Of a DNA stretch of 24,204 bases, positions 4,187 through 24,204 are shown one piece after another (positions within the stretch are counted from its first letter, which is position 1; every line of letters starts with the position of its first letter). The stretch lies in the IMG/VR virus record IMGVR_UViG_3300022198_002669, positions 1 through 24,204 of that record. One strand, given 5' to 3'. The notes under the pieces were generated by a model. It saw only the letters and a program-made list of their open reading frames with translations, made no database searches and had not been told where the DNA came from. Made by a program: the position numbers and the translations under genes. Origin of the DNA: a virus.

Positions 4187-4379
4187 AAAGAGACGATCAT
4201 GGGCCAAGTCTATTACGTGGAGGGTGCTTGCTGTTATTAGCACCTTTGGCGTAGGGTATGCAATGACATCAAGTCTGACCTTTGCAACTTCTCTCACCAT
4301 AGTTTCTAACACAATCAATTTTGTGTTATACTACATTCATGAGAGAGTTTGGCTAAAAGTAAAGTGGGGTAGGGTATGA
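4176..4379 (+). CDS. DUF2061 family two-helix membrane protein
   Basis: This 67-residue protein starts with GTG at 4176, inside the end of the previous gene. It matches DUF2061 closely: a basic N-terminus, the core SWAKSITWRVLAVISTF, then a second hydrophobic segment, and the family signature YYIHERVW at residues 52-59. Two transmembrane helices are expected at about 16-32 and 36-54. DUF2061 proteins occur in many bacteria as small inner-membrane proteins of unknown function, sometimes fused to other domains. It lies between an unknown helical protein and the helicase gene and overlaps the latter by ATGA. What a phage does with it is unknown; a change to the cell membrane during infection or a holin-like role would be speculation. 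Confidence 0.75.
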   Translation: MKIKKRRSWAKSITWRVLAVISTFGVGYAMTSSLTFATSLTIVSNTINFVLYYIHERVWLKVKWGRV

Positions 4380-5596
4380 GTAGCACAGAATCTAAGTTAA
4401 TATCTGCAGTCTTAAATGACAAGCAAGTGCACGTTATGCTACAAGCTAACGCAGATAATTTAATGGCAACCCACGGCGATGTCTGGGAATTTATTAGAAA
4501 ATATTTTGACAACAATGGCACAGTTCCGCCAACCTCTCTGGTGCTTGAAAAGTTTAGAGACTTTGAGGTTATAGAAAATACTGGTTCTACCAAGTATCAC
4601 CTTGATGAGCTACAGGCAGAATACCTAAACTCTAGCCTTAAGTCTATCCTTATGAGTGCTGCCTCAGAAGTCCAGGTAGGAGAAGGTGCCAAGGTTCTGG
4701 AAACCTTAATTACCCAAACTTCAGAGCTTAAGAAAAACACTGCTGTTATTAGGGATATTGATGTCACAGATCTTGAATCTGCCGTTGCCTATTATCAGGA
4801 GCAGCAAAGACTAGCTGAAACTGGCATAACTGGAATTAAGACAGGCCTACCAGGATTTGATAATTACCTGCCAGCAGGCATTCAGCCAGGCCAGCTAGGA
4901 GTTTTTCTTGCATACCCAGGCATTGGAAAGTCTTGGCTATCTCTATATTTTGCAGTGCAGGCCTGGAAGCAAGGCAAGTCGCCACTAGTAATTAGCCTTG
5001 AAATGAGCGAGACAGAGGTTCGTAATCGTGTCTTTACTATTATGGGTGAAGGCCTATGGTCACACAGAAAGCTAAGCTCTGGGCAAGTAGATGTAGATGA
5101 TTTGAAAAAGTGGCATGCCAGTAAGCTTGCTGGCAAGCCAGAGTTCCACATTATTTCAAACGATACTGGAGGAGATATTACCCCGTCTGTATTGAGGGGA
5201 AAGATTGATCAATACAGCCCAGATTTCGTAATTGTTGACTACCTACAGCTGATGTCTCCAAACCAGAAGTCCGATAACGAGACGGTGCGTATGAAGAACC
5301 TATCTCGTGAGCTCAAGCTTATGGCTATTTCTGAAGAGGTGCCAATCATGGCCATCTCATCAGCAACACCAGATGATGTTACCAAGCTAGATACCGTGCC
5401 AACCCTTGGCCAAACCGCATGGTCTAGGCAGATTGCCTACGATGCTGACTGGGTAATGGCCCTGGGACGTGCACCAAACTCAGACATTATAGAGTGTGTT
5501 TTTAGGAAAAACCGCAATGGCTTTATGGGAGAGTTCTTGGTCCAGGTAGATTTTGATAAAGGATGGTATAAGTACAAGGATTATGAAGATAATTAG
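4376..5596 (+). CDS. dnaB: Replicative DNA helicase, DnaB-like
   Basis: This 406-residue protein unwinds DNA ahead of the phage fork as a 5'-3' hexameric ATPase. The RecA-fold core starts near residue 150. The Walker A motif is AYPGIGKSW (179-187), with the catalytic glutamate in LEM (208-210). Walker B is VIVDYLQLM (285-293), and a later basic segment carries the expected arginine finger region (FRKNRNG, 376-382). The first 140 residues are shorter and more divergent than in bacterial DnaB and resemble an N-terminal collar domain. At about 400 residues it is slightly shorter than the usual 450. The ATG overlaps the upstream stop (ATGA), so expression is coupled with the DUF2061 gene. It is followed by the primase two genes later, a typical helicase-primase pairing. 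Confidence 0.93.
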   Translation: MSSTESKLISAVLNDKQVHVMLQANADNLMATHGDVWEFIRKYFDNNGTVPPTSLVLEKFRDFEVIENTGSTKYHLDELQAEYLNSSLKSILMSAASEVQVGEGAKVLETLITQTSELKKNTAVIRDIDVTDLESAVAYYQEQQRLAETGITGIKTGLPGFDNYLPAGIQPGQLGVFLAYPGIGKSWLSLYFAVQAWKQGKSPLVISLEMSETEVRNRVFTIMGEGLWSHRKLSSGQVDVDDLKKWHASKLAGKPEFHIISNDTGGDITPSVLRGKIDQYSPDFVIVDYLQLMSPNQKSDNETVRMKNLSRELKLMAISEEVPIMAISSATPDDVTKLDTVPTLGQTAWSRQIAYDADWVMALGRAPNSDIIECVFRKNRNGFMGEFLVQVDFDKGWYKYKDYEDN

Positions 5597-5597
5597 T

Positions 5598-5603
5598 TAT
5601 AAT
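5598..5603 (+). promoter_or_regulatory. -10 box placed for a leaderless start at 5611
   Basis: A perfect TATAAT ends seven bases before position 5610, so transcription would begin at or next to the ATG at 5611. No Shine-Dalgarno is visible before that ATG. There is no good -35 element. Leaderless mRNAs are common in actinobacteria, which makes this arrangement plausible, but it remains an inference. Confidence 0.4.
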
Positions 5604-5610
5604 TTACTGT

Positions 5611-5955
5611 ATGAACACCATACATCACAAGGCAATCAAGAGATTTTCTCTAGACGGTATTATTCAGGACGATTCCAAAATTGGAAGGCTCCACGAAGAA
5701 TACAAGAGAATTCTTGGCATAGAGATGAAGCTATCGGGTTATGTGCCGAGATTAGACATTGACCCAGACTTTACTATCAGCTATAATAGTGAGTCTAATA
5801 GCTTTAGCTTTGAGCTTAGTGTTTATGGAACTTATGTGGGAAAGAAGAGAGCAGAATGGATAATAGGAATAGACGGAACGGACGTGATTTCTTCACAGAC
5901 CGACAAGTCGAACGAGTCCTTACCGCTTCGGGTATCGAGATATCCCAAGAGCTAG
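5611..5955 (+). CDS. Conserved phage protein of unknown function overlapping the primase gene
   Basis: This 114-residue protein has no recognisable Shine-Dalgarno. A helical N-terminal third (IGRLHEEYKRILGIEMKL) is followed by beta-strands (DFTISYNSESNSFSFELSV), and the conserved-looking part ends near YVGKKRAEWIIGIDG. The C-terminal 30 residues overlap the start of the primase gene by 100 bases in another frame, a long overlap for this compact genome. This tail looks less conserved in style than the body. No catalytic residues stand out. Its position between helicase and primase suggests a replication accessory, by neighbourhood alone. Confidence 0.55.
   Translation: MNTIHHKAIKRFSLDGIIQDDSKIGRLHEEYKRILGIEMKLSGYVPRLDIDPDFTISYNSESNSFSFELSVYGTYVGKKRAEWIIGIDGTDVISSQTDKSNESLPLRVSRYPKS
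5759..5787 (+). promoter_or_regulatory. Near-consensus promoter inside the gene upstream of primase
   Basis: TTGACC at 5759-5764 and TATAAT at 5782-5787 are separated by exactly 17 bases, matching 11 of the 12 sigma-70 consensus positions. Transcription would begin near 5794, about 62 bases before the primase ATG at 5856. It is embedded in coding sequence (IDPDFTISYN), so chance cannot be excluded, but the fit is strong. Confidence 0.55.
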
Positions 5956-6800
5956 ATGCTGACTATTTAATTTTCTGCCCATTCCACAGCAATCACAGAA
6001 CACCAGCAGCTGAAGTAAATAAAGAAACGGGTATGCTATTTTGCTTTTCCTGTCACGTTACTTCAACACTTATAGAGCTTGTTATGCACGTGTCGGGTAG
6101 GTCATACTTTGAAGCAGCCAGACTTATTAAAAGTAAAGAGTCAAAAGATAGCCTAGTAGAACAGCTTAATAAAAAGCTTGTTGAAGAGCCAGAGTATAAG
6201 GCATTTGACCAAGAAATGGTTAGCAGGCTTGCGTCTCAGGCTTCTGCTTCAGAAACTGCTATAGATTATTTTGCAGGCCGTAAAATTACTAAAGAGTCTA
6301 TGTCTAAATTTAAGCTAGGATTCTCAGAAAAGCAACAAATGGTAACTGTTCCAGTGCATGCACCTGACGGCACCCTGGTAGGCTTTGTTGGCAGGTCTAT
6401 TGAGGGCAAGGTATTTAAGAATACTCCAGGCCTACCAAAAGCTAAAATACTTTTTAATTTGCACAGGATCAAGTCAGAAGATAGTGTCTACATTGTAGAG
6501 TCATCGTTTGATGCTATTCGTCTAGATCAATGTGGCATACCAGCAGTTGCTACTCTGGGGGCAAACGTGTCGAACAAGCAAATAGAGCTGCTGAAAAAAT
6601 ATTTTAATAGTGTTATCGTAGTTGCAGACAATGATGATGCGGGCGGTAACATGAAAAATAAGATCCTTGAATCTTTACGTTCAAGGGTATCTGTGGTACA
6701 ATTGGACCAGCGATACAAAGACATCGGAGACATGAGCGATGAAGATATTAAAAATCTTAAACCATCATTTGACAACTCCATAATGTCTATGCTAAAATAA
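5856..6800 (+). CDS. dnaG: DNA primase, CHC2 zinc finger and Toprim
   Basis: This 314-residue primase makes RNA primers at the phage replication fork. The zinc-binding domain is at the N-terminus with ligands C41, H44, C63 and C66 (CPFH ... CFSC). After a linker, the Toprim domain carries the conserved glutamate in VESSFDA (E215) and the acidic pair in ADNDDAG (D258 and D260). The helicase-interacting C-terminal domain of bacterial DnaG is absent, and the total length is about half that of host DnaG, as in many phages. The start at ATG 5856 puts the zinc finger at the expected distance; the 100-base overlap with the upstream gene is unusual but plausible. The gene lies between helicase and SSB. 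Good promoters are visible both before it and at its 3' end. Confidence 0.92.
   Translation: MDNRNRRNGRDFFTDRQVERVLTASGIEISQELDADYLIFCPFHSNHRTPAAEVNKETGMLFCFSCHVTSTLIELVMHVSGRSYFEAARLIKSKESKDSLVEQLNKKLVEEPEYKAFDQEMVSRLASQASASETAIDYFAGRKITKESMSKFKLGFSEKQQMVTVPVHAPDGTLVGFVGRSIEGKVFKNTPGLPKAKILFNLHRIKSEDSVYIVESSFDAIRLDQCGIPAVATLGANVSNKQIELLKKYFNSVIVVADNDDAGGNMKNKILESLRSRVSVVQLDQRYKDIGDMSDEDIKNLKPSFDNSIMSMLK
6769..6798 (+). promoter_or_regulatory. Strong promoter for the SSB gene in the 3' end of primase
   Basis: A perfect -35 TTGACA (6769-6774) is followed after 18 bases by TAAAAT (6793-6798), preceded by TGC, which makes an extended -10. Transcription would begin near 6805, giving a 20-base leader that carries AGGAG (6814-6818) six bases before the SSB ATG at 6825. 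Independent expression of an abundant ssDNA-binding protein makes biological sense. Confidence 0.65.
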
Positions 6801-6824
6801 AAAACCAAAAAACAGGAGAAAAAA

Positions 6825-7484
6825 ATGAGTGTAATTAAAGGGCTAAAGAATATCAATGCACTACTTGATAAGCCAAGATATGATGAAAACAAGCCACGAG
6901 TTCGTTGGCTAAAGCTTGCAGACGGTCAGTCTGTCAAGATTCGCTTTATTGAAGAGCTAGACGAAGATAGTGCTAGCTATGCTGACAATCGAGGTCTCGC
7001 ACTTGTAGTAAAGGAGCACTCGAACCCAAAGGACTACAAGCGTAAGGCTGTAGATACAATGGATACCGATGGCCGTGACTTTGCTGAGGAGATGTACCGC
7101 AAGGACCCAAAGGCAAACTCTGGCTGGAAGTCAAAGCTTCGCTTCTACTGCAACGTTCTTGTTGATGACGGCCTTGAAGATCCCTACGTTGCCATCTGGT
7201 CAATGGGTGTAAGCAAGCAGTCTGTATTCAATACAATTCGTGAGTATGCTCTAGATACTGGAAGCATTTCTAATGTTACATGGAAGCTAAAGCGAAATGG
7301 CCAGGGAACTGAGACCAACTATACTCTAATTCCAACAGCTCCAGACAAGGAGCCGTTCACATGGGATGGAATTGAGCCATTCCCATTGGAGTCTGCACTA
7401 AACAAGATTCCATACGCAGAGCAAGAGGCATTCTACCTCGGCTTTGATGCTCCATCAGTCACTTCTTCAAATCTTGACTGGTAG
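6825..7484 (+). CDS. ssb: Single-stranded DNA-binding protein, gp32-like
   Basis: This 219-residue protein coats single-stranded DNA during replication and recombination. It is not a classical bacterial SSB. The overall order resembles T4 gp32-type proteins of phages: a basic N-terminus (MSVIKGLKNINALLDKPRY), an early strand pair WLKLADGQSVKIRFIE, then a core with WKSKLRFYCNVLVDD (residues about 101-115) and DPYVAIWSMGVSKQSV. No four-ligand zinc site is present, in contrast to T4 gp32. The C-terminus is mildly acidic and ends SSNLDW, recalling the tip that SSBs use to contact partners. The start has a well-spaced AGGAG. It sits between primase and polymerase and has its own promoter candidate. 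Coding sequence here looks more G/C-rich at third positions than in the flanking genes, consistent with high expression. Confidence 0.68.
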   Translation: MSVIKGLKNINALLDKPRYDENKPRVRWLKLADGQSVKIRFIEELDEDSASYADNRGLALVVKEHSNPKDYKRKAVDTMDTDGRDFAEEMYRKDPKANSGWKSKLRFYCNVLVDDGLEDPYVAIWSMGVSKQSVFNTIREYALDTGSISNVTWKLKRNGQGTETNYTLIPTAPDKEPFTWDGIEPFPLESALNKIPYAEQEAFYLGFDAPSVTSSNLDW

Positions 7485-7492
7485 GAGATAGG

Positions 7493-10400
7493 TTGAGCTA
7501 TAACGGCCTTCACGTCCACACGCACTACTCTTTATTTGATGGCATTGCCACACCTGAAGAGTATTTGACTCGTGCCCAAGAACTGGGCATGAAGTCTCTT
7601 GCAATTACGGACCACGGATCACTTTCTGGGCACAGAGAGTTCTATCGTATCGCCAAAGAAAAGGGCATTAAACCAATTCTTGGTATTGAGGGATACATTA
7701 CAACGGATAGAAAAGATCAGCGTGCACCAGATGTTCGTGACGGCCTACTAGACCTTGTATATAATCACATTATTGTTATTGCAAAAAATCAAACAGGTCT
7801 AGAAAATCTTAACAAGCTCAACGAAATTGCGTGGACTGAAGGGTTCTTCAAAAAGCCACGCTTTGACTACGAGGTGCTAGAGAAGTACTCAGAGGGGCTT
7901 ATAGTCCTATCTGGGTGCCTCTCTGGTGCCCTAGCAAAGGCTATTGAGGCCGAAGAGTTGGCAGAGGCCAAGAGAATTATTGAGTGGCACAAGCGGGTAT
8001 TTGGTGAGGACTATTACATTGAAGTAATGCCACACAACCCACCAGAAGTAAACAAGCAGCTACTAGAGCTGGCAGATAAGTACGGTGTAACTCCAATTGT
8101 TACTCCAGACTGCCACCACTCTGATACCAGTCAAAAAGAAATTCAAGAACTTAAGCTCATCCTTAACTCTTATGCCAATAAGGTGGAAAAGAGTGCTACC
8201 TATGAGAAGTCTTTAAAGTATGACAACCTCATGGATAAGCTTAACTATCTCTACGGAGAAAGGCAGATTTCATTTGCTAATTTTGACATTCACTTGCTTT
8301 CAGATGAAGAAATGCATAGTGCAATGAAAGCACAAGGCATTGACAGAGAAGACATGTACCTAGCAACTCATGAAGTCTCAGACAAGATTGAAGACTACGG
8401 GATTAAGGATCACCTAGATCTGCTACCAGTACAATATCAAAATCCTGATGCAGAACTTAGGGAGCTAGCCATGGCTGGTTTAGAAAAACGTGGAGTCCTT
8501 AGTGATGAGTATGTGGCTAGGCTAGACGAAGAGCTTGAAGTAATTAAAGACAAAAACTTTGGCCCATACTTTTTGGTTGTTCGCTCTATGATTGCCTGGG
8601 CAAAGAAAGAGGGAATTATTGTAGGTCCTGGCCGTGGCTCAGCTGCTGGCTCCTTGCTTTGCTATGCACTAGAGATTACCGACATTGATCCAATTAAGCA
8701 CGGACTACTATTCTTCCGTTTTATTAATCCAGAGCGTAATGATTTTCCAGATATTGATACAGACATTCAAGACTCCCGTCGTGATGAAGTAAAAGATTAT
8801 CTGGTTAGACAATATAAGCACGTAGCATCGATTGCAACATTCTTGCAGTTTAAAGACAAGGGTGTTGTTCGTGATATTGCACGTGTTCTACATATCCCAT
8901 TAACGGATGTTAACAAAGTAATGAAGGTGGTGGACACTTGGGATGACTACTGTACATCAAAACAAGCAGCGTGGTTTAGAGAAAAATATCCAGAGATTGA
9001 AAAATATGGCGATCAACTGCGTGGGCGTATTCGTGGGACTGGCATACATGCTGCTGGTGTTGTTACCTCTAAGCATCCTATTTTTAGGTATGCTCCCATG
9101 GAAACTCGTACGGCTCCAGGTACAAAAGAAAGAATCCCAGTAGTAGGGGTAGACATGGAAGAGGCAGAGCGTATCGGTCTTATTAAGATTGATGCACTAG
9201 GCCTTAAAACACTATCAGTTTTAAGAGACACTTTAGATATTATTGAGCAAAGACACTATAAGAAAATTAACCTACTATCTATAGACATGGAGGACCCAAA
9301 AGTCTACCAGATGCTCTCTGACGGCTTTACAAAGGGTGTTTTTCAGTGTGAAGCAACGCCTTATACCAACCTACTTGTCAAGATGGGGGTAAAGAATTTT
9401 GCAGAACTTGCAGCTTCCAATGCACTAGTTCGCCCAGGTGCAATGAATACTATTGGTAAGGACTATATTCTTCGTAAACAGGGCAAGCAGAATATCGGCT
9501 ATCACCATCAAGTTATGAAAGAATTTACTTCAGAAACTTATGGGTGTATTTTGTACCAGGAGCAGGTTATGCAAGCCTGTGTAAACCTTGGCGGTATGAC
9601 AATGGCAGAGGCTGACAAGGTTCGTAAGATTATTGGAAAGAAGAAGGATGCAAAAGAGTTCGATCAATTTAGAGAAAAGTTTGTTGAAGGTGCTTCAAGG
9701 TATCTCACTCCTAATTTCGCAAGGGATTTATGGTCTGATTTTGAGGCCCATGCTGGGTATTCGTTTAATAAGTCTCACGCTGTGGCGTACTCTACGCTCT
9801 CGTATTGGACGGCATGGCTAAAGACATACTATCCACTTGAGTTTATATATTCTATCCTTAAGAATGAAAAAGATAAGGACGCACGCACCGAGTATTTGAT
9901 TGAGGCCAAGCGTATGGGCATTTCTATTAAGCTGCCACACGTAAATGATTCTGATGCAGACTTTAAGATTGAAGGCAAGGGCATTCGGTTTGGACTTACT
10001 GGCATTAAGTACATTTCAGATAATGTTGCCAGCAAGTTCTTGGCAAAGCGTCCATTTAAGTCATACAAAGAGCTAGAAGAGTTTACTATGCAAAAGGGTA
10101 GCGGAGTAAACACAAGATCATTGCAAGCATTGAGGGTAACTGGTGCAGCAACTTTTGAAGATAACCCTAGGAACGATGATGAAGTAAGGACTAACCTTTA
10201 TGAGTTTTTAAACCTTCCAGAGTTTAATGTCTCTGTTCCACCGCACTATTATGCATTTATTAATGATGTGGAAGAGTTTGAAGAAAAAGGATCTTTTATC
10301 TTAATGGGAATGGTCAAAAGCATTAAGCGTGGCAAGGGATGGTCACGAGTAGAAGTTCTTGACAAAACTGGAAGCATAGGAATATTTGATGAAGAGCAAA

Positions 10401-10768
10401 CTGAGATTGAGCCAGGCCGTACGTACCTGTTACTGGCTACTGATAATCGCATTGTGCATTATGTCCCTGCAGACGAGATAAGCAAGGCAGATTCGGCATT
10501 GGTTCGATATCTAAACTACAAGAGCTTGCCGTATAAAGAAGATGAGCTTTTTGTTGTATCTTTTAAGTCACGCACAACAAAGGCTGGGAAGAAAATGGCA
10601 TCAATGACTGTGGCAGATGTTGCCAGGGAGCTACACTCAATAACAGTATTTCCCACAGCATTTCCAAAGGCATATATGAAAATTAAAGAGGGCAAGGCAT
10701 ACAACCTAAGCCTAGGTAAAACAAAAGACGGAACGGTCATATTGGAGGATGTAATTGACAACAATTGA
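7493..10768 (+). CDS. dnaE: DNA polymerase III alpha subunit, DnaE type with PHP domain
   Basis: This 1091-residue family C polymerase replicates the phage genome. It starts with TTG at 7493, behind AGGAG (7483-7487). The PHP domain begins at once: H7 and H9 in HVHTHYSLFDG, D40 and H41 in ITDHG, and later DCHHSD. The metal residues look intact, so intrinsic PHP exonuclease activity is possible. The palm motif GPGRGSAAGS is at 378-387. The catalytic aspartates are D420 and D422 in PDIDTD, with the third at D567 in KIDALGLKTL. The fingers contain GYSFNKSHAVAYSTLSYW. The C-terminus holds OB-fold-like segments (around FILMGMVKSIKRGKGWSRV and the closing 80 residues). It is slightly shorter than bacterial DnaE because little follows the OB region. 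The last 14 bases overlap the RecA-like gene. Confidence 0.96.
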   Translation: MSYNGLHVHTHYSLFDGIATPEEYLTRAQELGMKSLAITDHGSLSGHREFYRIAKEKGIKPILGIEGYITTDRKDQRAPDVRDGLLDLVYNHIIVIAKNQTGLENLNKLNEIAWTEGFFKKPRFDYEVLEKYSEGLIVLSGCLSGALAKAIEAEELAEAKRIIEWHKRVFGEDYYIEVMPHNPPEVNKQLLELADKYGVTPIVTPDCHHSDTSQKEIQELKLILNSYANKVEKSATYEKSLKYDNLMDKLNYLYGERQISFANFDIHLLSDEEMHSAMKAQGIDREDMYLATHEVSDKIEDYGIKDHLDLLPVQYQNPDAELRELAMAGLEKRGVLSDEYVARLDEELEVIKDKNFGPYFLVVRSMIAWAKKEGIIVGPGRGSAAGSLLCYALEITDIDPIKHGLLFFRFINPERNDFPDIDTDIQDSRRDEVKDYLVRQYKHVASIATFLQFKDKGVVRDIARVLHIPLTDVNKVMKVVDTWDDYCTSKQAAWFREKYPEIEKYGDQLRGRIRGTGIHAAGVVTSKHPIFRYAPMETRTAPGTKERIPVVGVDMEEAERIGLIKIDALGLKTLSVLRDTLDIIEQRHYKKINLLSIDMEDPKVYQMLSDGFTKGVFQCEATPYTNLLVKMGVKNFAELAASNALVRPGAMNTIGKDYILRKQGKQNIGYHHQVMKEFTSETYGCILYQEQVMQACVNLGGMTMAEADKVRKIIGKKKDAKEFDQFREKFVEGASRYLTPNFARDLWSDFEAHAGYSFNKSHAVAYSTLSYWTAWLKTYYPLEFIYSILKNEKDKDARTEYLIEAKRMGISIKLPHVNDSDADFKIEGKGIRFGLTGIKYISDNVASKFLAKRPFKSYKELEEFTMQKGSGVNTRSLQALRVTGAATFEDNPRNDDEVRTNLYEFLNLPEFNVSVPPHYYAFINDVEEFEEKGSFILMGMVKSIKRGKGWSRVEVLDKTGSIGIFDEEQTEIEPGRTYLLLATDNRIVHYVPADEISKADSALVRYLNYKSLPYKEDELFVVSFKSRTTKAGKKMASMTVADVARELHSITVFPTAFPKAYMKIKEGKAYNLSLGKTKDGTVILEDVIDNN

Positions 10769-11765
10769 ACAAGCAATGGCTTTGCTAGACCCTAAGATAA
10801 GGGCAAAAGTCCAGCCAGCAATCGGAATTTCAACAGAGTTCCAACCAACACCCAGTGCAGGCCTAAATCGTGCACTAGGAGGGGGCTTTCCATACGGCAG
10901 GCTAGTTCTGTTGTGGGGTAGCAAGGCATCTGCCAAGTCATCTCTTTGCCTTCAAACAGTTGCTATGGCACAAAAAGAAGGAAAGCTATGTGCCTGGATT
11001 GATGCTGAAATGTCGTATGACGAAGAGTGGGCAAAAAAGTTGGGGGTAAATGCAGAACAGCTTATCTATTCAGAAGCTCGCAGTATTAATGACATGACTA
11101 ATGTTGTAATTGCACTAATCAATGCTGGAGTAGATATGATTGTGATAGATAGTATTAGCTCTCTTTTGCCAGCAGTGTTTTTTGAGAAAGACTCTGATGA
11201 GCTAAAGGCACTAGAAAATACTAAGCAGATTGGTGCGACATCTAAGGACCTATCCCATGCATGGCTAATGATTAATTGGGCCAATAATAGGGACAAGCCT
11301 GCACTTGTTGTAGCAATCTCTCAGTCTAGAAATAATATTCAGGCAATGTACACACAGCCAATGCCAACGGGAGGAAACTCTACCCAATTTATGTCTTCAA
11401 CAATTGTTAAATTATTTTCTTCTAACTCTGATGGTCAAGCCATCAAGGGCAAGATAAAGATAGGAGACAAGCTTATTGAACAAAAGGTGGGTAGGCGTGT
11501 TAGGTGGGAAGTTACAAACTCTAAAACATCTGCTCCAGGAGAGACTTCTGAGTATGACTTTTACTTTAAGGGAGACCATGTCGGAATAGACTCGGTAGGA
11601 GATCTTGTAGATACCTCAGAAATGCTAGGACTCGTAGAGCGTACGGGTGCTTGGTACAAGCTAGAAAATGGCGAAAAGATTCAGGGCCGTGATGCTTTTG
11701 TAAAGTATGTAAAAGAAAATAAAGAGTATCGAGATAAGCTAGTTGGGCTATTAAATGAGCAATAA
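10755..11765 (+). CDS. RecA-like recombinase with altered P-loop
   Basis: This 336-residue protein probably assembles on ssDNA and drives strand exchange for phage recombination-dependent replication. The start is TTG at 10755, with GGAGG at 10744-10748 as Shine-Dalgarno, inside the end of the polymerase gene. The core starts at about residue 30 (PTPSAGLNRALGGGFPYGRL). The P-loop reads WGSKASAKSS (54-63), where the last glycine expected before Lys is Ala60. The catalytic acidic region is LCAWIDAEMSYD, Walker B is VDMIVIDSISSLLP, and the loop-2 region contains QSRNNIQAMYTQP. It is close to RecA in length but diverges outside the motifs, as usual for actinophage RecA-like proteins. Whether the altered P-loop still hydrolyses ATP is open. 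Confidence 0.87.
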   Translation: MTTIEQAMALLDPKIRAKVQPAIGISTEFQPTPSAGLNRALGGGFPYGRLVLLWGSKASAKSSLCLQTVAMAQKEGKLCAWIDAEMSYDEEWAKKLGVNAEQLIYSEARSINDMTNVVIALINAGVDMIVIDSISSLLPAVFFEKDSDELKALENTKQIGATSKDLSHAWLMINWANNRDKPALVVAISQSRNNIQAMYTQPMPTGGNSTQFMSSTIVKLFSSNSDGQAIKGKIKIGDKLIEQKVGRRVRWEVTNSKTSAPGETSEYDFYFKGDHVGIDSVGDLVDTSEMLGLVERTGAWYKLENGEKIQGRDAFVKYVKENKEYRDKLVGLLNEQ

Positions 11766-11946
11766 GTATGAGGTTCATCCAGGAAAATTTCCTTGCCACA
11801 CGTGCAAGGAAGTGGTAAAATCATTAAGGCACTATATAGAAGCAAAAGAGTTAACGTGGGTGTGCAGTCAAAAGCACCTTACCAAAGTTAGCTTGGACGT
11901 AAAGAAAAAGAAAAAGAAAGATTATGAGCGAGAAAGCGGAAAGTAA
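11755..11946 (+). CDS. Small zinc-ribbon-like protein
   Basis: This 63-residue protein starts at ATG 11755, overlapping the RecA-like gene by 11 bases. The pattern FPCHTCKEVV near residues 12-21, then WVCSQKHL near 35-42, gives Cys14, Cys17 and Cys37 plus nearby His residues (H27, H41), compatible with one zinc site. The C-terminus is a run of lysines (SLDVKKKKKKDYERESGK), suggesting nucleic-acid contact. It is tightly embedded between recombination genes, so a DNA-binding accessory role is plausible but not shown. Confidence 0.6.
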   Translation: MSNKYEVHPGKFPCHTCKEVVKSLRHYIEAKELTWVCSQKHLTKVSLDVKKKKKKDYERESGK

Positions 11947-12211
11947 ACGAATTGGAGCTAGACAACATAAAAACTCTGGTCGTAATACCAAGAAAGGCGA
12001 TGCCACTTGGGAAAACTTTACCGTTGACTTTAAGGAGTATCCAAAAGGCTTCACTGTAAACCAGGACAACTGGGCAAAGGCCGTAACCGATGCAATGAAA
12101 AATAAGAATGACCCCGCAATCGTGGTTGTTCTGGGAGAAGGAATCAGGAAGACAAGGCTTGCAATTATAGAGTTCTCTCTATTAGAGCAGCTTATTGAGG
12201 AATCAAAATGA
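11924..12211 (+). CDS. Possible small Holliday-junction resolvase-like (PD-(D/E)XK) protein
   Basis: This 95-residue protein overlaps the previous gene by 23 bases and the next by ATGA. The N-terminal half contains a basic segment (SKRIGARQHKNSGRNTKKGD), then WENFTVDFKEY, where Asp-x-Lys (VDFK) after a conserved Gly-Asp (KGDA) could be the core of a restriction-endonuclease-like active site. The second half holds NQDNWAKAVTDA and two strands (AIVVVLGEG and RLAIIEFSLLEQL). This order resembles archaeal-type Hjc resolvases and small phage relatives. It lies between the RecA-like and exonuclease genes. Because the motif is short, the nuclease call is tentative; it could also be a DNA-binding protein without catalysis. 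Confidence 0.45.
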   Translation: MSEKAESKRIGARQHKNSGRNTKKGDATWENFTVDFKEYPKGFTVNQDNWAKAVTDAMKNKNDPAIVVVLGEGIRKTRLAIIEFSLLEQLIEESK

Positions 12212-12819
12212 AAAAAATACTAATGCTAGATATTGAAACAACACCAATTAAAGCGTATGTCTGGGGACTCTGGGATCAGAATGTCACTATTGATCAGATC
12301 ATTGAGCCGACAGAGATGCTATGCTTTGGTGCAAGGTGGCTAGGCAAAAAGCAAGTAATCTTTAAGTCAGTACATCATGATGGAAAGAAGGCAATGCTAG
12401 AAGAGCTTCACAGGCTTATGGACGAAGCTGATGTTTTGGTGGGGTGGAACTCTGCAGCGTTTGACCACAAGCACATCAACAGAGAATTTCTAGAGAATGG
12501 CATGCAGCCACCTTCTCCAGTAAAGGACCTAGATCTTATGTCTATAACAAAAGCAAACTTTGCTTTTCCATCAAACAAGCTTGACTATGTTGCCCAGCGA
12601 CTCGGGGTAGGTGCAAAGGTAAAGCACTCTGGGTTTAGCCTGTGGCTAAAGTGTATGGACGGCGATGACAAAGCCTGGAAGGAAATGAAGAAGTATCAAG
12701 TACAGGACGTTAACCTTTTGATTGATTTGTATTATGAGCTGCTTCCATGGTTTGTTGGCAAGGGTAATGTGACAAGCACAGAGAAGCAAAAAATTATAGA
12801 GTCTGAGTTCGTGGTATAA
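12208..12819 (+). CDS. DEDDy 3'-5' exonuclease (RNase H-like fold)
   Basis: This 203-residue enzyme probably removes nucleotides from 3' ends and may proofread in trans for the DnaE-type polymerase. All expected residues of the DnaQ/PolB-exonuclease type are visible: D8 and E10 in MLDIETTP, D86 in VGWNSAAFDHKHI, and Y163 with D167 in YQVQDVNLLI, giving the DEDDy signature. Segment KDLDLMS (about 106-112) supplies the middle strand of the fold. The ATG overlaps the stop of the preceding gene (ATGA). DNA repair end-trimming is an alternative role. Its presence in the recombination block of the module fits either role. Confidence 0.82.
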   Translation: MKKILMLDIETTPIKAYVWGLWDQNVTIDQIIEPTEMLCFGARWLGKKQVIFKSVHHDGKKAMLEELHRLMDEADVLVGWNSAAFDHKHINREFLENGMQPPSPVKDLDLMSITKANFAFPSNKLDYVAQRLGVGAKVKHSGFSLWLKCMDGDDKAWKEMKKYQVQDVNLLIDLYYELLPWFVGKGNVTSTEKQKIIESEFVV

Positions 12820-12820
12820 T
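12812..12820 (+). promoter_or_regulatory. Extended -10 promoter, probably leaderless, before the gene at 12824
   Basis: TGG followed by TATAAT (12815-12820) forms a perfect extended -10. Transcription would begin near 12827, which coincides with the ATG/GTG pair at 12824 and 12827. No Shine-Dalgarno lies upstream. The string TATAATATAAT recurs at 2629-2639 in front of another gene. Confidence 0.45.
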
Positions 12821-12823
12821 ATA

Positions 12824-13132
12824 ATGGTGGAACAAGAAACAAGTACAATAGATAAAATTAATGGGCTGTCTGAGATAGCGGACTTCATGCAAGATGAAGA
12901 GCTAACCCAGGCACTCACCACCATTGCCAAGCTAATCTTAAAGCCAGATATTCCAATTCAGGTAGCAACACTTGAAATTGTTAGGCTACAGGCTATTGCA
13001 GCTAAGATGTCACTAAGGGCAACCTGGATGGTCAATGTAGAAAAGGGAGATCGGGCGAAGAAAAATATATACTTTACAACAGCAGAAGCAGTCAATGACC
13101 TTGTTGCAGCTCTAAAGTATATAACTCGTTAA
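12824..13132 (+). CDS. Helical conserved phage protein of unknown function
   Basis: The protein has 102 residues from ATG 12824 or 101 from GTG 12827. With no Shine-Dalgarno and a TATAAT just upstream, it may be translated from a leaderless mRNA. It is almost all helical. A leucine- and isoleucine-rich middle (residues about 37-65, with IPIQVATLEIVRLQAIAAKM) is followed by a short basic part (NVEKGDRAKKN) and a last helix (EAVNDLVAALKYI). It resembles small actinophage proteins located next to Cas4-like nucleases, but I can assign no function. It sits between the exonuclease and the iron-sulfur nuclease. Confidence 0.55.
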   Translation: MVEQETSTIDKINGLSEIADFMQDEELTQALTTIAKLILKPDIPIQVATLEIVRLQAIAAKMSLRATWMVNVEKGDRAKKNIYFTTAEAVNDLVAALKYITR

Positions 13133-13135
13133 GAC

Positions 13136-13939
13136 ATGATGGCTAAAAATTTACTACAGCAAGTAATGCTAAAGGCAGACTCTGCTCAGCAAAAGAAGTC
13201 TTTTTTAAATACCCAAGAGCTAATAGACAAAATTAATTATGGGTATGTTGCCAAGCGTGGGACCAAGTTCCAAACAAAGAAAACTTTTGCCCCTAGCACA
13301 ATAGCATTTTCCCATGGCGAGTGCCCCAGATACTGGTATTTAGCATTTGAGGGAGCCGACTTTACGGATAACGCAGATGCTTATGGCGGTGCTAACATGA
13401 CATCTGGTACCAAGTCACATGAGCGTATTCAGCAAGCCATGGAAGATGCAGGCATTCTTAAAGACTCTGAGTTTAAAGTTACGTGGGAGGACCCACCAAT
13501 CTTTGGCTTTGGCGATGTAATTCTTGATTGGGCAGGCGAAGACTTGCTCGGAGAAATTAAGACTATGCCCATGGAGGGCTTTGAGTATCGACAGAGGGTG
13601 GGCAAACCAAAAACTGGTCACCTAATTCAGCTACTAATTTATATGAGAATTCTTAATAAGACTAAGGCAGTTCTTATTTATGAAAATAAAAATAATCATG
13701 ATCTACTAGTTATTCCAGTAGAAGCTAGCGATTATTATATCAAGTGGGTAAACCAGACATTTGACTGGATGAAGACAGTTCGCAAGGCCTGGGAGGACAA
13801 AAAGCTTCCAGAAAAGAACTATAGGTCTAATTCCAAGATCTGCAAAACCTGTCCAATTCGGGCGGTTTGCGATGAGGCTGGCAAGGGAGAGACAAAGATT
13901 AATTCCTTGGAGCCGATAGATGAAAACCAAATATTGTAA
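13136..13939 (+). CDS. Cas4/RecB-like PD-(D/E)XK nuclease with iron-sulfur cluster
   Basis: This 267-residue nuclease has all parts of a Cas4/AddB-like exonuclease. One cysteine near the front (C63 in GECPRYW) and three near the end (C236, C239 and C245 in CKTCPIRAVC) would bind a 4Fe-4S cluster. H95 (in GTKSHERI), D127 (GFGDVIL), E140 and K142 (GEIK) and Q165 with Y169 (QLLIY) form the RecB-family active site. Start codons at 13136 and 13139 are adjacent, and the first is used here. There is no clear Shine-Dalgarno. In phages such proteins resect DNA ends for recombination. No CRISPR array or other cas gene occurs here, so a replication/recombination role is favoured. It overlaps the next gene by 20 bases. 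Confidence 0.87.
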   Translation: MMAKNLLQQVMLKADSAQQKKSFLNTQELIDKINYGYVAKRGTKFQTKKTFAPSTIAFSHGECPRYWYLAFEGADFTDNADAYGGANMTSGTKSHERIQQAMEDAGILKDSEFKVTWEDPPIFGFGDVILDWAGEDLLGEIKTMPMEGFEYRQRVGKPKTGHLIQLLIYMRILNKTKAVLIYENKNNHDLLVIPVEASDYYIKWVNQTFDWMKTVRKAWEDKKLPEKNYRSNSKICKTCPIRAVCDEAGKGETKINSLEPIDENQIL

Positions 13940-14207
13940 GTGGTGCGATACACAGTTTGATACAGAAGTTTCTTATCAAATATATTGTTCAACAGGGTGC
14001 CGAGAAGAGGCTACTAAAGAAAAAATTGCTGATAGATATATCGCCAATAGAAGAAAGCAGCAACACAAAAAGCCTAAGACTTGCAAAAACTGTGACAGCA
14101 AGCTGTCCGTATACAATGACGAAGATTTGTGCGTAAAATGTATTGTCAATCCACCAGATGTTAAGGGTGCATTAAGAGACATTCGTAGAATGAGCAAAGA
14201 TGGCTAG
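13920..14207 (+). CDS. Double zinc-ribbon protein
   Basis: This 95-residue protein has two Cys4-type sites: C6, C9, C23 and C27 (YCKWC ... YCSTGC) and, after a basic helix rich in Arg, Lys and Gln, C55, C58, C71 and C74 (CKNC ... CVKC). The C-terminus (KGALRDIRRMSKDG) is basic. It overlaps both neighbours, the iron-sulfur nuclease and the RuvC-like resolvase, by 20 and 8 bases. The arrangement suggests a nucleic-acid-binding or protein-bridging accessory of the recombination module. No enzymatic residues are seen. Confidence 0.7.
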   Translation: MKTKYCKWCDTQFDTEVSYQIYCSTGCREEATKEKIADRYIANRRKQQHKKPKTCKNCDSKLSVYNDEDLCVKCIVNPPDVKGALRDIRRMSKDG

Positions 14208-14730
14208 GCTTTGTTCCATAGATGCTAGCACAAACAATCTTGCCTATGCAATCTTTGATGGAGAAGATTTAGAGAGATACGGAAAAATAAGCTTTGGCGG
14301 ACAAACAATATACGAAAAAATTTCAAATATAAACAACCTAATTTTAGGAGAGTTTGAGCATGACTGGATACACACTGCAGTAATGGAAAGAGCTGTTTTT
14401 ATGAATAGCCCAAAGACCATGTCAGAGCTATCTATGGTTCAGGGTGCAATCATGGCGGGGCTATCGTCTGCTAAAATTAAAAATTGTTTGGGGGTGCCAC
14501 CCATAACCTGGCAGAACGGAATTGGAAACAAGGCACTGACTAAATCAGAAAAGCTAGAAATCCGTAAAGAGTACCCAGACAAGTCGGCCTCTTGGTATAA
14601 AAATTATGAAAGAGAATTTAGAAAACAGAGAACAATTAAGTTTGTCAATATTAACTATGATGTTAGTATTGACGATAATGATATTGCAGATGCCATAGCC
14701 ATAGGGCATTACATAATTCATCATACTTAG
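14200..14730 (+). CDS. ruvC: RuvC-like Holliday-junction resolvase
   Basis: This 176-residue protein is likely to cut four-way junctions left by phage recombination before packaging. The RNase H-fold acidic residues are in the expected order: D8 in CSIDASTNNLAYA, E63 in AVMERAVF, and the pair D161 and D164 in DNDIADAIAIGHY near the C-terminus. The spacing suits RuvC. A basic linker (NYEREFRKQRTIKF) lies between the third and fourth strands. The ATG overlaps the preceding gene by 8 bases. The gene closes the recombination block: its stop is followed by the Shine-Dalgarno of a small helix-turn-helix gene. Confidence 0.82.
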   Translation: MARLCSIDASTNNLAYAIFDGEDLERYGKISFGGQTIYEKISNINNLILGEFEHDWIHTAVMERAVFMNSPKTMSELSMVQGAIMAGLSSAKIKNCLGVPPITWQNGIGNKALTKSEKLEIRKEYPDKSASWYKNYEREFRKQRTIKFVNINYDVSIDDNDIADAIAIGHYIIHHT

Positions 14731-17911: not shown

Positions 17912-18311
17912 GTGTCTTCGCCAATATCCCTGGTCTACTATTCAAATTATTCGGAAAACACAAAACGATTTGTAGAGAAGGTGACTGATAATGGAATTCG
18001 TATTCCAGTTCGTGCTAGCGATGCTAGGGACTTTTGCGTGGCTAGGGACTATATACTGGTTGTTCCGACCTACGGCGGCGGAGCAGAAGGACCAGCCATT
18101 CCAAAACCTGTAAGGGTTTTTCTTAATAATCCTGCCAATAGGGATTTGTTGCGTGGTGTTATAGGCACTGGCAATACAAACTTTGGCGAACATTACTGCA
18201 AGGCAGCAGATATGATTTCTGCTAAAACTGGCGTACCCATTATTGCCAGGGTAGAGATCACGGGGACACCCGAAGATGTAGAACTAGTAAAGAAAAGGTT
18301 GGAAATATTAT

Positions 18312-21676: not shown

Positions 21677-21705
21677 CTTGCACTGCACTCATTCTTAATG
21701 TATAA
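21677..21705 (+). promoter_or_regulatory. Promoter for the 59-residue gene and probably the tRNA cluster
   Basis: TTGCAC (21677-21682) and TATAAT (21700-21705) are 17 bases apart. Transcription would start near 21712, followed by AGAGGG (21717-21722) and the ATG at 21728. This is one of the best promoter matches in the window, and the only clear one in front of the three tRNA genes. Confidence 0.6.
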
Positions 21706-21727
21706 TTGACATAGAAAAGAGGTTGCT

Positions 21728-21907
21728 ATGTCAATGGAATTCGACAACGTGCATCAGTGGATTCAGCACGGAATTGACGAAGGCTGGATTACGCCTACAT
21801 TTTGCTTTACTCATGATGGTGACGCATACATGACACCAGAAGAAGAGGCAGAGTGGGAAGACGGCGGAGATCCCTGCTGCCACGTAGTCAAATTTATTCA
21901 TCAGTAA
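21728..21907 (+). CDS. 59-residue acidic protein before the tRNA cluster
   Basis: The gene has a good Shine-Dalgarno, AGAGGG, five bases before ATG 21728. The protein is acidic. It has a first helix (NVHQWIQHGIDEGW), then TPTFCFTHDGDAYMTPEEEAEW, and ends with DPCCHVVKFIHQ. The Cys and His residues (C26, H29, C50, C51 and H52) are arranged such that a metal site is possible. It resembles small actinophage proteins with the pattern cysteine-x-x-His-Asp-Gly followed by a Glu-rich helix and Asp-Pro-Cys. The function is unknown. The stop lies 6 bases before the first tRNA. Confidence 0.65.
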   Translation: MSMEFDNVHQWIQHGIDEGWITPTFCFTHDGDAYMTPEEEAEWEDGGDPCCHVVKFIHQ

Positions 21908-21913
21908 CCGCCT

Positions 21914-21985
21914 TCCCCCTTAGCTCAACGGCAGAGCAGAGAGCTGTTAACTCTAAGGTTCGTGGTTCGAATCCACGAGGGGGAG
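21914..21985 (+). tRNA. tRNA-Asn (anticodon GTT)
   Basis: A 72-base cloverleaf: acceptor TCCCCCT with AGGGGGA, D-arm GCTC/GAGC, anticodon loop CTGTTAA, variable loop of 5, T-arm CGTGG/CCACG around TTCGAAT, discriminator G. The outermost anticodon-stem pair is a G-A mismatch (positions 27 and 43). The CCA end is not encoded. It reads AAC and AAT codons. Confidence 0.95.
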
Positions 21986-21989
21986 CTTT

Positions 21990-22063
21990 GGCCTGGTAGC
22001 TCAGTTGGTTAGAGCACCACCCTGTCACGGTGGGGGTCGTGGGTTCAAGTCCCATCCAGGTCG
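21990..22063 (+). tRNA. tRNA-Asp (anticodon GTC)
   Basis: A 74-base cloverleaf: acceptor GGCCTGG with CCAGGTC (one G-T pair), D-arm GCTC/GAGC, anticodon stem CCACC/GGTGG with loop CTGTCAC, T-arm GTGGG/CCCAT around TTCAAGT, discriminator G. CCA is not encoded. It lies 4 bases after tRNA-Asn. The ATG of the oxygenase gene is the second base after its discriminator. Confidence 0.96.
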
Positions 22064-22064
22064 C

Positions 22065-22637
22065 ATGGAAAAACAAATATTAGCTCCAGGAATAGTTCAA
22101 TATGAGAATGTTGTAGATAGTCCTATGGGCTTTATCAATGTTTTGAATAACGGTTCGTTGTGGGAACCAGGCATAGCTGCACCATCAAGATATCTTAAAA
22201 AAGATGGACACGAAATGGAAAGGCTAGTAGAAGTTTTCTTTCTTCCAACTCGTGAAGAAATTCAGAATCAAGAAATGCTTTTTTGGAGGAATCGGTTTGT
22301 AGATGCAATTGAAGAATGCGAAAAAGATTATTTAGATTATTATGTGGTTGACACAGTATTTTATGAAAGAGAGTGGCTTCAGTTTTTAAAGTATGAAAAA
22401 GGCCATCATTTTGCTAACCATATAGATGATGTTCCAGATTCCAGAAGAACCTTATCTGGAGTTTACTATTTTAATGATGACTACTGTGATGGGCAGCTTT
22501 ACTTTAAACATTTTGATTTAACCATTAAGCCAAGGCCAAACACATACCTTTTGTTTCCCTCTAATTGGACGTATGCCCACTCTGCAAAAAAAGTTACTTG
22601 CGGAACTAAGTATGCTATGGTAAACTTTTTACTCTAG
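22065..22637 (+). CDS. 2-oxoglutarate/Fe(II)-dependent oxygenase, prolyl 4-hydroxylase-like
   Basis: This 190-residue enzyme starts at ATG 22065, one base after the end of tRNA-Asp, with no room for a ribosome-binding site. The conserved-looking N-terminus (QILAPGIVQYENVV) supports this start over the codons inside the tRNA. The double-stranded beta-helix core carries the iron ligands H119 and D121 (NHID) and H172 (YAHSAKK), and K182 (GTKYAMVN) as the likely 2-oxoglutarate contact. The strand YLLFPSNWTYAH before H172 is typical. Substrate is unknown: related phage proteins may hydroxylate proteins, nucleobases or cell-surface components. The final G of its stop codon is the first base of tRNA-Glu, so the gene fills the space between two tRNAs exactly. 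Confidence 0.82.
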   Translation: MEKQILAPGIVQYENVVDSPMGFINVLNNGSLWEPGIAAPSRYLKKDGHEMERLVEVFFLPTREEIQNQEMLFWRNRFVDAIEECEKDYLDYYVVDTVFYEREWLQFLKYEKGHHFANHIDDVPDSRRTLSGVYYFNDDYCDGQLYFKHFDLTIKPRPNTYLLFPSNWTYAHSAKKVTCGTKYAMVNFLL

Positions 22638-22709
22638 GTCCGTTGGAGTAGCGGTTATCTCGTCTGCCTTTCACGCAGAAGATCACGGGTTCGATCCCCG
22701 TACGGACTA
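22637..22709 (+). tRNA. tRNA-Glu (anticodon TTC)
   Basis: A 73-base cloverleaf: acceptor GGTCCGT with ACGGACT (first pair a G-T wobble), short D-stem GAG/CTC, anticodon stem TCTGC/GCAGA with loop CTTTCAC, T-arm ACGGG/CCCGT around TTCGATC, discriminator A. CCA is not encoded. The first base overlaps the stop codon of the oxygenase gene. Confidence 0.94.
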
Positions 22710-22713
22710 CCTG

Positions 22714-22722
22714 TGATATAAT
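22714..22722 (+). promoter_or_regulatory. Extended -10 promoter for the katG transcription unit
   Basis: TGA followed by TATAAT (22717-22722) is a perfect extended -10, just after tRNA-Glu. The -35 position would fall within the tRNA T-arm and has no consensus. Transcription would start near 22729, 16 bases before ATG 22745, with AGGA (22737-22740) as a possible ribosome site. No recognisable FurA or OxyR operator can be claimed by eye. Confidence 0.45.
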
Positions 22723-22744
22723 TAATATCTAGAGATAGGAAAAA

Positions 22745-24204
<1,460 letters not shown>

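Follow-up and report, generated by a model that had tools for sequence, protein, structure and literature searches.

A phage oxygenase gene set flush between two tRNA genes, with a candidate Shine-Dalgarno sequence inside tRNA-Asp

The window analyzed here, i.e., one strand of a 24,204-base virus record, contains a gene for a 190-residue protein that is bounded by tRNA genes on both sides. ARAGORN calls tRNA-Asn at 21914-21986, tRNA-Asp at 21990-22064 and tRNA-Glu at 22637-22711; these ends take in one or two trailing C's, and the true ends were set by acceptor pairing, which assigns the discriminator bases to G22063 in tRNA-Asp and A22709 in tRNA-Glu. With the ends defined in this manner, the features follow on the plus strand as tRNA-Asn (gtt; 21914-21985), tRNA-Asp (gtc; 21990-22063), the protein-coding gene (22065-22637) and tRNA-Glu (ttc; 22637-22709), and a CCA is encoded in neither tRNA-Asp nor tRNA-Glu. 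A single C (22064) separates the start codon (ATG, 22065-22067) from G22063, and the stop codon (TAG, 22635-22637) ends on G22637, which is at the same time G1 of tRNA-Glu (pair G1.U72); the spacing is thus 1 nt before the gene and a 1-nt overlap after it. No terminator was found in a search. The initial annotation had described a gene fitted exactly between two tRNAs with no terminator, and proposed that the tRNA ends and the homologous phages be checked; ARAGORN and acceptor pairing confirm the layout with all coordinates exact, and both junctions recur unchanged in two further IMG/VR contigs, L002 and L003, which are 851/851 and 848/851 identical over 21900-22750.

The translated product matches the Pfam family 2OG-FeII_Oxy_3 (PF13640, E 1.9e-13) and PHROG 61, and displays H-I-D, a distal H in YAHS, and GTK. 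The domain match is thereby accompanied by the HxD...H motif and the 2OG-binding Lys/Arg of 2OG-Fe(II) oxygenases, and assignment of the 190-residue product to these enzymes is credible from its sequence. Both the reading frame and the catalytic motif are intact, and a sequence search for relatives of solved structure gave none. Alternative starts could be discarded on both sides of ATG22065: the in-frame TTG at 22005 is part of tRNA-Asp, and resemblance to the family sets in shortly after ATG22065. A homing endonuclease (GIY-YIG or HNH) of the segB type, residing in the tRNA cluster, was likewise ruled out, 2OG-FeII_Oxy_3 being the only Pfam assignment.

The window further encodes a DnaB-type helicase, a terminase, a ribonucleotide reductase and other phage genes. 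The reductase genes are similar to those of phages of Arthrobacter, Gordonia and Mycobacterium, and an actinobacterial host is therefore likely on the basis of sequence similarity; KatG is uninformative in this respect, its best matches (58-66% identity) being spread over many phyla. Upstream of the tRNAs, a TATAAT at 21701-21706 was noted by eye as a possible -10 element for a 59-residue ORF, tRNA-Asn, tRNA-Asp and the oxygenase; it is not among the results of the consensus scan and serves as a candidate lead only. The 59-residue ORF (21728-21907) has a GAGG leader, lies upstream on the likely shared transcript, and has no match in Pfam or PHROG. Just after tRNA-Glu, the extended -10-like element TGATATAAT (22714-22722), recognized from the sequence and from relatives, is likely to be a separate promoter for a 35-residue ORF (22745-22852) and katG, the TAA of the former overlapping the ATG of the latter (TAATG). 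The catalase-peroxidase gene katG (22852-24204; Pfam peroxidase, E 3.1e-39) is cut by the contig end, and in L537, a near-identical contig, it is present in full length (4807-7008, 733 residues), placed between tRNA-Glu and tRNA-Thr. Among isolate phage records, katG is matched only by entries that look like bacterial sequence filed in error, and a viral katG has been reported from an estuary metagenome (PMC13390420). A TGnTATAAT element is found a few bases past the last tRNA of many clusters (the window, 22714-22722, and L002, L019, L050, L052, L054, L059, L061 and L064), which suggests that a new transcription unit may begin at this position.

For comparison, 80 related loci were gathered by a search with the neighboring NrdB. 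In many of these the tRNA cluster is ordered Asn-Asp-(Glu)-Thr, and the tRNAs are often 1-4 nt apart with differing genes between them. Only CACT separates tRNA-Asp from tRNA-Thr in the close relative L007, whereas the oxygenase, tRNA-Glu, the 35-residue ORF and the complete katG occupy this interval in L537, and we therefore regard the oxygenase as cargo at the 3' end of tRNA-Asp, i.e., as occupying a position between tRNAs that is filled differently in related phages. Within this phage group, genes of five unrelated families have their start codons 1-4 nt past a tRNA end: the oxygenase, a 211-residue ORF (L025), a family abutting tRNA-Thr (L007/L070/L073), a carbamoyltransferase (L026) and a DUF6065 gene (L057), the last of which is followed by the next tRNA 3 nt past its end. 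In the tRNA-Thr-abutting family a spacer of 2-3 nt is kept at 52-54% identity. A C directly follows the discriminator base in nearly every CCA-less tRNA of these loci; changing this C shifts the ARAGORN boundaries, and the pattern may thus be partly an effect of the tool.

Flush tRNA-gene junctions, on one or both sides, also occur in unrelated phages. In L209 (2668-3167) a 112-residue ORF starts 1 nt after tRNA-Ile and ends 0 nt before tRNA-Ser, and a different 2OG oxygenase in an unrelated context, L514 (4524-5250), starts 1 nt after tRNA-Gln, the acceptor arm of which contains GGGGAG. The clearest punctuation-like region seen is L536, an array at 4287-14326 of the 112-kb virus record G001, where four protein genes are sandwiched between tRNAs at distances of 0-5 nt, in the order Lys-(2)-ORF130-(4)-Lys, Met-(2)-ORF134-(1)-Ile, Cys-(2)-ORF71-(5)-Val and Val-(2)-ORF195-(0)-Asp, together with further genes that abut tRNAs on one side. 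ORF130 and ORF195 match the Pfam families of PD-(D/E)XK endonucleases and DNA methylases, respectively, and the tRNA region of L536 has no match among phage isolates. Across loci that were not selected for abutment, distances from tRNA end to ATG fall into two groups, 1-5 nt and from about 13 nt upward, with few values of 6-12 nt in between (16 vs 6 once homologues are merged, p = 0.004), and the distance from stop codon to tRNA peaks at 0/+1, with recurring one-base overlaps. The TAG/G1 overlap in particular is found again in L133 (twice), L160 and L265. Among the IMG/VR matches listed, the proportion of abutting triplets that open a long frame is not clearly higher for ATG than for the control triplet GTA (13/87 vs 7/66), and the reality of each abutting gene therefore rests on homology, which the oxygenase has; since each start was set to the first ATG of its long frame, the start may be wrong in some of the abutting cases. 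The layout is thus recurrent rather than unique to the window, the stop/tRNA overlap at the 3' side being ordinary in phages and abutment at the 5' side uncommon but recurrent, and the view that such an arrangement is rare in phages is not supported.

The initial annotation had also concluded that there is no room for a ribosome-binding site. This is probably wrong, because a Shine-Dalgarno sequence can overlap the tRNA: an AGGU in the 3' acceptor strand of tRNA-Asp (22058-22061) ends 3 nt before the oxygenase ATG. The AGG-to-ATG spacing is 4, within the range of the phage's own genes at 17912, 21728 and 22745, which show 4-5. IMG/VR tRNA-Asp genes followed by ATG were scanned for AGGTCGC, which was found in 5/5 cases abutted by ORFs of at least 80 residues and in 2/41 without an ORF, i.e., without one of 50 residues (p = 1.5e-5). 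The five cases stem from about three tRNA lineages. The idea was formed on the window and L025, which leaves three new cases from two tRNA lineages, and exact tests calculated by hand give about 8e-4 for the three cases and 0.007 for the two lineages. AGGU is hence shown to be associated with genes abutting tRNA-Asp. In the same phage group, the tRNA arms preceding the abutting genes of L007, L026 and L057 contain strong matches to a Shine-Dalgarno sequence (-9.4 to -11.9 kcal/mol), and L514 follows the same plan, its 2OG oxygenase lying behind a tRNA arm with GGGGAG. Against this, the match weakens for the tRNA-Thr-abutting gene in L070/L073 although the 2-3 nt spacer is kept. At the oxygenase, the possible pairing with the 16S tail is weak (-3.2 kcal/mol) and is equaled at 40% of random ATGs, few matches in the window are weaker, and AGGU would be base-paired in the folded tRNA-Asp. 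Across all phages sampled, Shine-Dalgarno matches at abutting starts are not enriched relative to tRNA ends at large (p = 0.32).

We consider a tRNA-borne Shine-Dalgarno sequence the leading mechanism for the start of oxygenase translation, with a probability of about one half, because of the association of AGGTCGC with ORF-abutted tRNA-Asp genes. The oxygenase is cargo placed next to the tRNA-Asp 3' end within a tRNA cluster, a site taken by other genes in related phages, and a single RNA most likely carries both it and the tRNAs. Translation most likely begins on RNA in which tRNA-Asp is uncut or unfolded, with AGGU probably acting as a short-spaced Shine-Dalgarno sequence, and would end at the TAG, the G of which is also position 1 of tRNA-Glu. 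That the same bases are both tRNA and translation signal is probably a by-product of compaction, and at each junction one RNA molecule could presumably serve only one of the two uses.

The main competitor, which we judge possible but doubtful, is true tRNA punctuation, in which 3' processing of tRNA-Asp (RNase Z type) frees a C-AUG mRNA that is translated nearly leaderless. Such translation stays conceivable because many flush genes in other phages, e.g., in L209 and the four sandwiched genes of L536, are without a Shine-Dalgarno sequence, and abutting starts are poorer in Shine-Dalgarno matches than the starts of genes located at 10-30 nt from a tRNA (p = 0.004); when only Shine-Dalgarno-using phages are considered, however, this difference is not significant (p = 0.14; L536 alone, p = 0.07). 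The C before the AUG also argues against it, since mycobacterial initiation is best with the start codon at +1 and its efficiency likely drops when the codon lies a few bases further in (PMC4633059). At the 3' end, cleavage by RNase P at G22637 would leave ...CUCUA, i.e., no complete stop, and the trimmed UA would have to be tolerated through prior translation, tmRNA rescue or a 3' A as in mitochondria. A primary leaderless mRNA from a promoter of its own is ruled out, as 22050-22058 is CCATCC-like tRNA sequence and no -10 is listed there; a leaderless mRNA would therefore need tRNA processing. The suggestion that leaderless translation is workable stands in so far as the actinobacteriophage-like genome makes it possible, but a -10 about 10 nt before the ATG is lacking. 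It is only tentatively, and with the odds against it, that phages are said to have repeatedly evolved mitochondria-like punctuation, with flush genes freed by tRNA processing and the oxygenase as one case; if so, L209 and the multi-gene array in L536 would be the clearest cases. There may also be two modes, a tRNA-borne Shine-Dalgarno sequence in groups like that of the window, and leaderless or other initiation elsewhere.

Neutral compaction, by which recombination joined the cargo to the tRNA end and the gene is little expressed, with neither a Shine-Dalgarno sequence nor processing under selection, would agree with the wide variation of cargo at these tRNA ends and with the poor Shine-Dalgarno match of the oxygenase. 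We judge it improbable, given the intact frame and catalytic motif and the spacing kept in the tRNA-Thr-abutting family. Even less credence is given to a regulatory switch, in which tRNA maturation and oxygenase translation compete for one RNA and thereby set the ratio of tRNA to enzyme. The two uses do overlap at both ends of the gene, and CCUGGUAGCU (21992-22001) in the 5' strand of tRNA-Asp can pair with AGCUCCAGG (22085-22093) early in the oxygenase gene, which would compete with the tRNA-Asp acceptor stem; this fold, however, is no better than that of shuffled sequence (z = -0.6), so that an alternative RNA fold under conservation was rejected, and a somewhat longer segment takes the cloverleaf fold. 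Stop/tRNA overlaps are, moreover, common behind ordinary genes, and the shared TAG/G1 need not be regulatory because it also follows genes with ordinary Shine-Dalgarno leaders in L133. A switch, though possible, is very unlikely and has no specific support.

If tRNA arms do act as ribosome-binding sites, the same bases would be read as tRNA and as translation signal, and tRNA supply would be tied to enzyme output on one RNA. If instead excision makes the mRNA, tRNA punctuation would not be confined to organelles. Given the large number of flush junctions between tRNAs and genes, the question of mechanism can be tested directly in either case, and annotation rules that bar overlap of genes and tRNAs may miss or mis-start such genes. 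No paper describing this tRNA-gene-tRNA layout, or tRNA punctuation, in phages was found in a literature search that covered few subscription journals.

In mitochondrial tRNA punctuation, protein genes lie directly between tRNAs, with leaders of 0-3 nt and stop codons completed by the first base of the next tRNA. The oxygenase is alike in being a tRNA-bounded gene without a real spacer and with a tRNA-completed stop, and the likeness drawn in the initial annotation is sound for the layout and unproven for the mechanism. Mitochondrial genomes are punctuated throughout, whereas in the window this applies to one gene, which has a candidate Shine-Dalgarno sequence; the other genes are not bounded by tRNAs on both sides and have leaders with Shine-Dalgarno sequences. 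Actinobacterial leaderless mRNAs share with the oxygenase an AUG at or beside the possible mRNA 5' end, but in those mRNAs the 5' end is where transcription itself begins, with a -10 immediately before it (PMC4633059), whereas the 5' end of an oxygenase mRNA would arise by tRNA cleavage. 2OG-Fe(II) oxygenases of marine and freshwater phages have the Pfam domain and catalytic motif in common with the window oxygenase; those found are at most 32% identical to it, and the relatives L004/L005 have, unlike the window, no tRNA nearby. T4 segB, located between tRNA-Arg and tRNA-Ile, is likewise a non-tRNA gene amid a phage tRNA cluster, and its ribosome-binding site carries RNA structure (PMC2988022); segB, however, is a homing endonuclease gene with its own upstream promoter, whereas the window gene encodes a 2OG oxygenase and has no intergenic leader.
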